64,000 nucleotides of DNA from Egicoccus sp. AB-alg2 (lineage in GTDB: Bacteria; Actinomycetota; Nitriliruptoria; Nitriliruptorales; Nitriliruptoraceae). A program made the position numbers and the translations under genes. Below, piece by piece: positions 51,627-54,395 of this stretch (its first letter is position 1; every line of letters begins with the position of its first letter). The notes under the pieces were generated by a model, which saw only the letters and a program-made list of their open reading frames with translations, had not been told where the DNA came from and did not search any database. The stretch covers positions 186,001 to 250,000 of the forward strand of contig NZ_JBGUAX010000003.1 of NCBI RefSeq assembly GCF_041821065.1. The letters are read 5' to 3'.

Positions 51627-53135
51627 TCAGACCAGCAGGCGGGCCGGCGCGCGGGACGTGACCGGCTCGTAGGTGTGCCACGCGGCGGCCAGGCGCCGCA
51701 CGCCCTCGCGCAGGACCGGTTCGGGGCGCGAGAACACCAGCCGCAGCCCGCGCCGGTTGCCCTCGTCGACGGACAGGGCCGGACCCGGGACGACCGACAC
51801 CCCGTGACGCAGGGCCAGCTCGGCGAACTCCTCGGCGTTGCCGGACGGCAGCGTGACCCAGACGGACAGCCCGCCCTCCGGGCGGCGCCAGCGCCAGGTC
51901 GGCAGGTGGTCGGCCAGCAGGTCGCAGAGCAGGTCGCGCTGGGGGATCAGCTGCGCGCGCCGTTCGGCCAGCACCTCCTCGGCGTGCTCGAGCAGGCGGA
52001 CGGCCAGGAGCTGGCTCAGCAGCGGCGTGCCCAGGTCGGCCACCGTCTTGGTCGCCAGCATCCGCACGCTCCAACTCGTCGGCGAGCGCAGCCACCCGAC
52101 CCGGAGACCGGCCCAGAACAGCTTGGCGGTCGAGCCGAGCGTGTGGACGGCACCCTCGCCGTTGGAGAACGCGGCGATCGGCGGCGGCAGCGGCGGGCCG
52201 TCGAGGTGCACGTCGCCCATCGCGCGGTCCTCGATGACGACGATGTTGCTGCGATCGGCCAGGTCGGCAACCGCGCGGCGGCGGTCCTCCGGCAGCACCG
52301 CGCCGGTGGGGTTGTGGAAGTCGGGGGAGAGGTAGATCAGCTTGGGTTCGGTGCGCGCGATCAGATCGGGAAGCGTGTCGGTGCGCACGCCGTGCTCGTC
52401 GACCGGCAGCGGCACCATGCGGGCGCCGAAGCGCCGGAAGACGTCCAGCGCGCCGGGGAAGGTCGGGCTCTCCACCAGCACCGTGTCACCACGCTGCAGG
52501 GTCTGACGCGCGACCAGCGAGATGGCCTGATGGGCGCCGGTCGTGACCAGGACCTGGTCCTCGGTGGAGGGCAGCCCGGCGACGGCGAAACGTGCCGCCA
52601 CGATCTTGCGCAGCGCCCGCAGGCCGTGCGGCACGTAGCCGTGGTGGGCGACCAGCGAGGAGACGTCGCTGGCCGACAGCGACGAGAGCAACTCGATGAC
52701 CCGCGGGGAACCGGTCACGGCCGCGACCGACAGCTCGACGACGTCCTCATCCGCCGCGGCCGGCGGCTCACCGGGGCCGCTGCGCTGGTCGGCCCGGTCG
52801 TCGGAGAGGAACAGTCGGGCCGTCGCCACCGCGTCCACGCCGCCCCGGTCCTCGCCCTCCGGCCGCCGCACCCACGTGCCCGACCCCTGGCGGCTCTCCA
52901 GCCAGCCCTCCGCCTTGAGCCGGTCGTAGGCCGCGACCACCGTGGCGCGGCTGACCGACAGCGAGCGCGCCAGCACCCGCTCCGGGGGCAGGACGGTCCC
53001 CAGCGGGATCTCGCCACGGTCGACCGCGTGCTTGAGCCCGTCCGACAGCTGCCGGTACAGCGGCCCGTCCCCCGACAGGACCGCGGCCAGGATGCCCGCC
53101 AGGTGCGGTCCACTTTCGCGGATTGGCTCTTCCAA
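51627..53135 (-). CDS. MocR-type GntR regulator with aminotransferase domain
   Basis: A 502-residue MocR/PdxR-type regulator: an N-terminal GntR winged helix (PLYRQLSDGLKHAVDRGEIP, SRATVVAAYDRLKAEGWL, about 28-90) and a C-terminal fold-type I aminotransferase domain expected to bind PLP (YLSPDFHNPTGAVLP, about 265; the lysine segment is STAKLFWAGLRVGWLR). PLP or a PLP adduct would be the signal. The TTG start lies within a TTGG/CCAA palindrome, suggesting autoregulation. It is divergent from a candidate non-coding RNA rather than a pdx operon. Confidence 0.92.
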   Translation of the reverse strand: MEEPIRESGPHLAGILAAVLSGDGPLYRQLSDGLKHAVDRGEIPLGTVLPPERVLARSLSVSRATVVAAYDRLKAEGWLESRQGSGTWVRRPEGEDRGGVDAVATARLFLSDDRADQRSGPGEPPAAADEDVVELSVAAVTGSPRVIELLSSLSASDVSSLVAHHGYVPHGLRALRKIVAARFAVAGLPSTEDQVLVTTGAHQAISLVARQTLQRGDTVLVESPTFPGALDVFRRFGARMVPLPVDEHGVRTDTLPDLIARTEPKLIYLSPDFHNPTGAVLPEDRRRAVADLADRSNIVVIEDRAMGDVHLDGPPLPPPIAAFSNGEGAVHTLGSTAKLFWAGLRVGWLRSPTSWSVRMLATKTVADLGTPLLSQLLAVRLLEHAEEVLAERRAQLIPQRDLLCDLLADHLPTWRWRRPEGGLSVWVTLPSGNAEEFAELALRHGVSVVPGPALSVDEGNRRGLRLVFSRPEPVLREGVRRLAAAWHTYEPVTSRAPARLLV

Positions 53136-53170
53136 TGGCAGTCCAATACGGAGGGATAGTGGAGTTGGAC
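53122..53170. promoter_or_regulatory. TCCAAT/ATTGGA boxes between mocR and the candidate RNA
   Basis: TCCAAT occurs at 53131-53136 and again at 53142-53147, an 11-bp direct repeat. Inverted partners ATTGG (53122-53126) and TTGGAC (53165-53170, also the -35 of the plus-strand promoter) flank them. Direct repeats near their own start are typical MocR operators. These boxes overlap the mocR start and lie directly before the RNA promoter. Confidence 0.6.
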
Positions 53171-53193
53171 CGGAACGCCGGCCGTGGTAACGT
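53165..53193 (+). promoter_or_regulatory. Promoter of the candidate non-coding RNA
   Basis: TTGGAC (53165-53170), a 17-nt spacer and TAACGT (53188-53193) make a good housekeeping sigma-type promoter reading away from mocR. Transcription would begin near 53200. Confidence 0.6.
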
Positions 53194-53197
53194 ACCT

Positions 53198-53525
53198 CTC
53201 AGCAGGCCAAAGGGCACGGTTTCGGCCCTCCCACCGAGATCGAGTACCAGGCCAAACGGAGTCGAACTCCGCGGCGATCGGGACCGGCTCTCCCGCCGGC
53301 CCCACCGCGAGACTCCACGACAACTGCATAAGACGTACGCGAGGCGGCACGCTCCCTCTCCCCGCCGACTCGCGTATCGCTCGGGCCACGACGGGTTCGC
53401 CCTCTCCCACCCGGCGGCTCTCCCACCGCCCGGATGCTCTCTCTCCCAAAGTCGCATCCTCTCGCGAACCCCGAGTCCGAGCCCACGACGTCCCCCCGGC
53501 CCTCCCACCGGGGGGACGCTTCGTT
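53198..53525 (+). ncRNA. Candidate multi-hairpin RNA with CUCCC loops
   Basis: About 320 nt with no convincing ORF but many short inverted repeats whose loops share a C-rich motif. Hairpins: stem 53218-25/53234-41 with loop CCCUCCCA; 53284-88/53295-99 with loop UCUCCC; 8-bp stem 53336-43/53369-76 enclosing CUCCCUCUCC; 53392-96/53409-13 enclosing CCCUCUCCC; 53413-17/53426-30 with loop CUCUCCCA; 53432-37/53454-59 enclosing CUCUCUCCCA; and the terminator 53490-99/53508-17 with loop CCCUCCCA. A promoter precedes and a terminator ends it. The loops are complementary to Shine-Dalgarno-like purines (UGGGAGAG), as in C-rich-loop small RNAs. I know no named family with this layout. Confidence 0.55.
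53490..53517 (+). terminator. Terminator of the candidate RNA
   Basis: A perfect 10-bp stem (gtccccccgg / ccggggggac) with an 8-nt CCCTCCCA loop, followed by gcttcgttt. The loop has the same C-rich motif as the upstream hairpins. Confidence 0.65.
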
Positions 53526-53585
53526 TCCCGCCCGTTTCCGCAGCACCTGCTCCGGTTGCGGGTCGATGGCCGCCCCGCGTTTCCC

Positions 53586-53909: not shown

Positions 53910-54395
53910 TCAGGCGAAGGGGAGGGTGGGGGTGCCTTCTTGACCGTCGAGGAGGCGGACGCGGACGCCGCAGTCGCGCAGGAAGTCGCGGACCTCGTCC
54001 CAGCCGTCGTAGCGGCCGCCGCCGGCGACGACCTCGCCGACGCCGGAGTTGGCGATCAGTTTCGCGCAGCCGAAGCAGGGGGCGCCGGTGCAGTACAGCG
54101 AGGCACCGCTGCGTTCCTCCGGCGAGGAGAACAGCAGGGCGTTGGCCTCGGCGTGGATGGCGATGCAGCGCTCGTAGTCGTGGCCCTGCGGCGCGTCGGA
54201 CGCCGCCCGCGGGCAGGCGCCCTCGTCACAGTGCCCGAAGCCGGACGGGCCGCCGTTGTAGCCGGTGGCGACGATGCGCCGGCCCTGGACGATGACGGCC
54301 CCGTGCTTCCGACGGGCGCAGGTGGCACGGGTCGACGTGGTGCGCGCCAACTCGAGGAAGTACTCGTCCCAGGATGCCCGTCGCCCCACCACCAC
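53910..54395 (-). CDS. dCMP/cytidine deaminase family protein (ComEB-like)
   Basis: A 161-residue zinc deaminase. The zinc/catalytic motif is HAEANAL (about 82) with cysteines in GAPCFGCAKLI (about 104); an additional Cys/His set (FGHCDEGACPRA) resembles the second zinc site of dCMP deaminases. It would convert dCMP to dUMP for dTTP synthesis. The gene begins with three consecutive GTG codons after GAGGGGG. It is isolated between inverted repeats, with a G-quadruplex motif 35-51 nt upstream. Confidence 0.88.
   Translation of the reverse strand: MVVGRRASWDEYFLELARTTSTRATCARRKHGAVIVQGRRIVATGYNGGPSGFGHCDEGACPRAASDAPQGHDYERCIAIHAEANALLFSSPEERSGASLYCTGAPCFGCAKLIANSGVGEVVAGGGRYDGWDEVRDFLRDCGVRVRLLDGQEGTPTLPFA

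Follow-up and report, generated by a model that had tools for sequence, protein, structure and literature searches.

Here, we show that the intergenic region upstream of a mocR gene in a member of the Nitriliruptoraceae, a family of salt- and alkali-loving Actinobacteria, almost certainly carries a genuine, conserved and structured RNA. Comparison among relatives identifies it as a plus-strand non-coding RNA whose stems are held by compensatory changes and whose unpaired C-rich motifs are kept. The window analyzed comprises 64,000 nucleotides (positions 186001-250000 of contig 3, G000:C3) of a 4.84-Mb genome, and its features are listed in Table 1. The original prediction had placed the RNA correctly; the conserved unit begins slightly further upstream and includes the promoter.

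Table 1. Features of the RNA locus, in coordinates of the window
Feature	Position	Strand	Evidence or remarks
mocR gene	51627-53135	-	MocR-type regulator, divergent from the RNA; Pfam PF00392 and PF00155
Candidate MocR operator	53122-53170	.	Repeats conserved in relatives; putative binding
Promoter TTGGAC-N17-TAACGT	53165-53193 (TTGGAC, 53165-53170; TAACGT, 53188-53193)	+	
Non-coding RNA gene	53200-53527 (approximate ends, ~320 nt)	+	blastn in relatives; covariance model R1 match at 53338-53518; G-U versus A-C counts
5' hairpin 1	53217-53242	+	Loop CCCUCCCA; predicted folds
5' hairpin 2	53284-53299	+	Loop UCUCCC; predicted fold
Linker ACAACU, unpaired, conserved	53320-53325	+	Between 5' domain and core
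Hairpin D	53335-53377	+	Large loop with two motifs (CUCCCUCUCCC); arm-swap test
Multibranched domain	53379-53482	+	Closing helix E, 53379-53386/53475-53482; inner helix E1, 53393-53400/53464-53471; unpaired CUCUCCCA, 53402-53409
Hairpin E2	53413-53430	+	Loop CUCUCCCA
Hairpin E3	53432-53459	+	Loop with CUCUCCCA at 53441-53448
Intrinsic terminator F	53489-53518	+	Hairpin, loop CCCUCCCA, tail CUUCGUUU
dCMP/cytidine deaminase-like gene	53910-54395	-	PF00383; synteny in relatives

The RNA unit is situated between mocR and the deaminase gene, and the latter, convergent to the RNA, lies outside the unit. Two nested inverted repeats were found on both sides of the deaminase gene (53612-53749/54688-54825, 138 nt, 96%; 53770-53882/54552-54664, 113 nt, 84%), possibly representing a repeated intergenic element of the genus. 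The promoter was found exactly as originally predicted. Its geometry, in which a TTGG/TTGC box is separated by the same spacer from a TANNNT box, is kept in 24 of 28 relatives, and in 25 of 28 if a deviation of one base is allowed; transcription would start near 53200. The predicted intrinsic terminator with a C-rich motif in its loop was likewise found, and is the sole terminator-like site within 2 kb. With positions 53160-53530 as query, blastn detected 84-87% identity over the whole stretch in the three other genomes of the genus, while most of the family gave shorter matches, mainly to the terminator-containing 3' part. The covariance model R1, which represents the RNA core with 179 positions and 48 pairs, matched exactly once in 27 of 35 Nitriliruptoraceae genomes. 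It had no match in the 31 remaining genomes of the class and, among 396 genomes drawn from the phylum, none outside the family; the filters used for the latter set were stricter, so that very diverged copies could have escaped. Beyond these 27 matches, blastn revealed a copy in G014 (L027) and a terminator-like fragment in G033, and in G028 a contig end truncates the copy, leaving only the 3' half of the terminator.

The predicted fold of the RNA has a free energy of -150.8 kcal/mol (z -4.8 relative to shuffled sequences), with the motif in six hairpin loops, one of which contains two copies, and on one unpaired multiloop strand. The original count of at least seven hairpins, most of them with the motif, was thus slightly generous. 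Part of this fold is a multibranched domain, in which helix E, with the arms GCUCGGGC...GUCCGAGC, encloses E1, the unpaired motif strand, E2, and E3. The plan of the core is much alike in the folds of each relative, with D followed by the E domain of the same composition and then F. The 5' domain is variable among genera; in many species it adds one or two CUCCC hairpins to those of the core. The ACAACU linker is nearly invariant across the RNA family and might serve as a protein or RNase site or as a seed. Pairing of the conserved ACAACU-GAAG linker with the terminator tail, present in some folds, was rejected, as swapped pairs were equally good (p 0.62).

Because helices E1 and E3 are misplaced when MAFFT aligns by sequence only, covariation was assessed in a covariance-model alignment and by an alignment-free arm-swap test, in which, for each helix, the own two arms of each species were compared with arms exchanged between species. 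Own arms were more stable in D (z -11.4), E (-7.4), E1 (-7.8), E2 (-6.5), and F (-6.8), a result reached by 0 of 20,000 permutations for each of the five helices, with the reservation that the permutations ignore the species tree. For L001-L003, the three members of the genus, anchoring of the E1 and E2 arms was too early by one motif, an offset that can make these tests weaker but not stronger. In the model alignment of 27 sequences, 92.4% of cells were paired, compared to 39-49% when the structures were slid by 1-3 columns. Changes on both sides were observed for 36 of the 48 pairs (149 cells), giving a covariation score of 0.303 versus 0.105 in shuffles, a value that 0 of 500 shuffles attained; this alignment, fitted to the model, is biased in favor of the structure, unlike the arm-swap test. 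Every modeled pair of hairpin D changes on both sides, and in hairpin E2 98.5% of cells were paired and three of five pairs covary. The stems thus covary strongly.

G-U pairs exceeded A-C mismatches in the well-aligned helices (19 versus 4 cells), which favors the plus strand; with all helices counted, including the poorly aligned ones, the numbers were 23 and 34. A minus-strand RNA with CsrA-like GGA loops was considered as well, but is contradicted by the promoter, the terminator, and the G-U counts. In line with the earlier statement that the region holds no credible ORF, the search across relatives yielded no conserved frame. Each frame is stopped in some relative, and the length of the core varies freely from 174 to 204 nt, covering all residues modulo 3, so a coding frame across the region was rejected.

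The window RNA contains eight copies of CTCCC, located from 53226 to 53507. The octamer CUCUCCCA, of which two copies had been reported, occurs three times (53402, 53418, and 53441). The RNA is G+C-rich and runs of C are therefore likely to arise by chance; nonetheless, with 4-11 copies per RNA and a mean of 7.14, CTCCC was well above the 2.25 copies expected from dinucleotide shuffles, and CTCTCCC was found 3.04 times per RNA versus 0.23 expected. The permuted words CCTCC, CCCTC, CCCCT, and TCCCC were close to expectation or below it, CCTCC being slightly avoided (1.57 per RNA versus 2.33 expected). CTCCC sites had a mean unpaired probability of 0.88, compared to approximately 0.4 for whole RNAs. 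Among 27 RNAs, the motif was retained in the loop of D in 26, in E2 in 25, in E3 and F in 24 each, and on the E1 strand in all 27. This conservation in relatives points to selection on the loop motifs.

The neighboring mocR gene encodes a protein with a GntR-type winged helix-turn-helix and an aminotransferase-like domain, in which the PLP lysine is present in STAKLFWAGLRVG. NCBIfam NF052290 (YczR) was by far its best family, with 466.6 bits relative to a cut-off of 487.4; by sequence, this MocR therefore appears YczR-like, nearest to the YczR group, yet below the cut-off of that subfamily. By this protein, the closest named relatives are metagenome-assembled genomes of the Nitriliruptoraceae. 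As originally described, the RNA lies next to a divergent mocR gene, and this order is kept: a MocR orthologue, 60-80% identical, adjoins the RNA in relatives; in the named ones, the genes are arranged as 2Fe-2S protein, HPPD, deaminase, RNA, mocR, and enoyl-CoA hydratase. HPPD, the deaminase or both are absent from the locus in some relatives, while the RNA and mocR are still there. Conversely, in G004, G005, and G017 the deaminase and enoyl-CoA hydratase flanks are intact without either mocR or RNA, and the best MocR homologue is absent, or 45% identical and encoded elsewhere. Since mocR and the RNA are both missing from these intact flanks, they behave as one unit; G008 and G020 were left out of this judgement because of contig ends or an unassembled locus. 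At the place of the pair, G005, G004, and G017 (L244, L245, and L247, respectively) encode a small membrane protein whose CxxC motifs resemble those of a zinc ribbon.

The gene order, with the regulator divergent from the RNA, is both conserved and co-inherited, and a functional link of the RNA with MocR is likely. In the intervening region, ATTGG (53122), CCAAT (53132 and 53143, 11 bp apart), TTGGAC (53165) and, further on, GGCCAA (53205) cover the mocR start, the -35 box of the RNA, and the transcript start, and MocR may bind the TTGG/CCAAT repeats among these. Many sRNAs are encoded divergently from their own regulator, with GcvA-GcvB and OxyR-OxyS among the pairs (PMC4423775). The mocR-RNA arrangement resembles these, the regulator gene being divergent from the sRNA that it likely controls, but they involve LysR-type regulators, whereas the regulator here is a PLP-binding GntR-type MocR protein and its control is putative. 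In YczR-YczE regulons, a MocR gene and a divergent unit are separated by TTGG/GGCCA-type repeats (PMC4944035). The locus studied here likewise combines a YczR-like MocR gene and a divergent unit with reminiscent repeats in between; this unit, however, is an RNA gene and not a yczE membrane-protein gene.

The claim that no RNA with such a layout had been described was too strong, since alpha-r14 (PMC10746234) and 6C/B11 RNAs (PMC10470900) are similar. The alpha-r14 RNAs, such as NfeR1 of Sinorhizobium meliloti, have three hairpins with identical anti-Shine-Dalgarno (SD) loops on divergent stems, and the three loops of NfeR1 redundantly silence ABC-transporter and ntrB mRNAs (PMC10746234). In B11/6C, C-rich loops pair with ribosome-binding sites and thereby repress, either loop being sufficient (PMC10470900). 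RNAIII of Staphylococcus and other sRNAs present UCCC in unpaired loops to the SD sequences of many mRNAs (PMC2837412); these are unrelated to the MocR-paired RNA in sequence, lineage, and regulator. As in alpha-r14/NfeR1 and AbcR1/AbcR2, one motif is repeated in the unpaired loops of several hairpins, and the Nitriliruptoraceae RNA combines the features of an anti-SD loop array, namely an identical C-rich motif in several unpaired loops and covarying stems. The sRNA with redundant anti-SD loops is hence a kind already known; novelty lies in the family itself, in how many loops it carries, in its multibranched core, and in MocR as the partner.

Taken together, we consider it reasonably probable that the RNA is an sRNA under the control of MocR and that its redundant loops pair with SD sites of the GGGAG type. 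Transcribed from its own promoter and ended by its own terminator, the RNA of approximately 320 nt would act in trans. The PLP-binding MocR would occupy the repeats over the -35 box of the RNA and over its own start and, in response to a metabolite, turn the RNA on or off, so that the pair might work in the manner of GcvA-GcvB or OxyR-OxyS. The C-rich loops, singly or jointly, would base-pair with GGGAG-type SD sequences and block translation of several mRNAs, as the loops of 6C and NfeR1 do. The original notion of an array of anti-SD loops was a reasonable one in this respect, but the loops read CUCUCCC and not the canonical CCUCC, and no target emerged from the analysis.

The complement of the loop CUCUCCC is GGGAGAG. 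GGGAG was found in 8-12% of ribosome-binding windows, 2-5 times the background (with simple gene calling and small samples), which in principle makes many mRNAs possible binding partners; the word was equally common in one genome without the RNA. In three genomes of the genus, exact TGGGAGAG preceded start codons at 11, 10, and 7 sites, and eight of nine gene-like sites in the genus belonged to membrane or secreted proteins, many of them for transport, where about one-third was expected, a pattern noticed post hoc. In independent genomes this prediction was not confirmed, with two of seven sites in those with the RNA (three of seven by eye) and three of 15 in those without it. TGGGAGAG was no more frequent before start codons of RNA-carrying than of RNA-lacking genomes; compared with a control pattern, sites numbered 83 versus 69 and 70 versus 49. 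The short word GGGAG gave no enrichment of membrane or secreted genes, and a conserved target was not found. In G003, a broken sugar-binding-protein gene follows TGGGAGAGGGAG, the complement of 12 nt in the D loop (L168, G003:C1:3704791); this extended match was rejected as a target, the gene being broken and missing from most relatives. Transporter and secreted-protein mRNAs are therefore a lead only. It is tempting to speculate that the RNA is the dedicated output of the PLP-binding MocR and silences such mRNAs through at least seven redundant loops, that of the terminator included, but this fuller proposal is doubtful. If true, a MocR protein would for the first time have an sRNA as its effector, and we know of no anti-SD RNA with more loops.

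The lack of enrichment of target sites would also suit the main rival explanation, a protein sponge or scaffold whose CUCUCCC loops bind several copies of a C-rich-binding protein, in the manner of RsmY/RsmZ-type RNAs, which bind CsrA through GGA loops. One short motif recurs many times in hairpin loops, even in that of the terminator, on stems that vary freely, as such a sponge would require. However, no bacterial protein with affinity for this motif is known to us, the motif is also complementary to common SD words, and the analogous 6C and NfeR1 RNAs work by base-pairing, which makes a sponge unlikely. Still less probable is a general effect on translation, for example if the RNA competed with the 16S rRNA 3' end for SD-like sequences on many mRNAs simultaneously. 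Each molecule offers at least seven anti-SD-like loops and GGGAG is a common SD word, but CCUCC, the better anti-SD word, is not enriched, and a global brake would be expected beyond one family. Genomes with and without the RNA (small samples) did not differ in a way that would suggest genome-wide adaptation of their SD sequences to the loop.

The intergenic location, with a divergent gene on one side and a convergent gene on the other, might suggest a cis-acting leader, attenuator or bidirectional terminator of a neighbor, or repeats that act as DNA without an RNA role. This is very improbable considering that the next gene is convergent, that the RNA has its own terminator and a conserved promoter, that G-U pairs favor the plus strand, and that the RNA is kept in relatives lacking HPPD or the deaminase at the locus. 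Descent from, or membership in, the actinobacterial 6C family, suggested by C-rich loops and a shared phylum, can practically be dismissed, because length, loop number, and motif differ and RF01066 has no match in the window or in RNA-carrying genomes, yet finds a copy in a class relative.

That copy (L249, G047:C1:905881-905956) scores above the Rfam cut-off for 6C and lies in a relative without the new RNA. At gathering score, RF01066 gave no match in the window, in 16 relatives or in RNA-carrying genomes. The Rfam search of the window that had originally been proposed returned nothing at gathering thresholds and one chance match only at relaxed thresholds, leaving the RNA without a match. 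6C/B11 RNAs share C-rich hairpin loops and an actinobacterial origin with the MocR-paired RNA but are approximately 75 nt long with two loops of C runs, in contrast to approximately 320 nt and seven to eight motifs; two hairpins with runs of at least six C in their loops, the hallmark of 6C, were not found, the loops being CUCUCCC or CCCUCCCA. Alpha-r14 RNAs are alphaproteobacterial and have three hairpins, each carrying CCUCCUCCC. The MocR-paired RNA, by contrast, belongs to an actinobacterial family, contains seven to eight CUCCC/CUCUCCC motifs, has a core that is multibranched, and is accompanied by a divergent mocR gene; CCTCC is not enriched in it and its hairpin number is different. By sequence and defining features, the RNA thus forms a new family outside both 6C/B11 and NfeR1.

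In the open-access literature, from which many journals are absent, we found no sRNA described under MocR control and no small-RNA work on Nitriliruptoria. Our analysis adds a well-supported RNA family to this class, and presents a MocR regulator whose likely target is an RNA. The family presents an anti-SD-like loop array with far more copies of the motif than 6C, in a lineage in which 6C was not found. As its loops are near-identical and countable, it would permit a direct test of redundant seed loops with respect to multivalent binding, dose, and titration.
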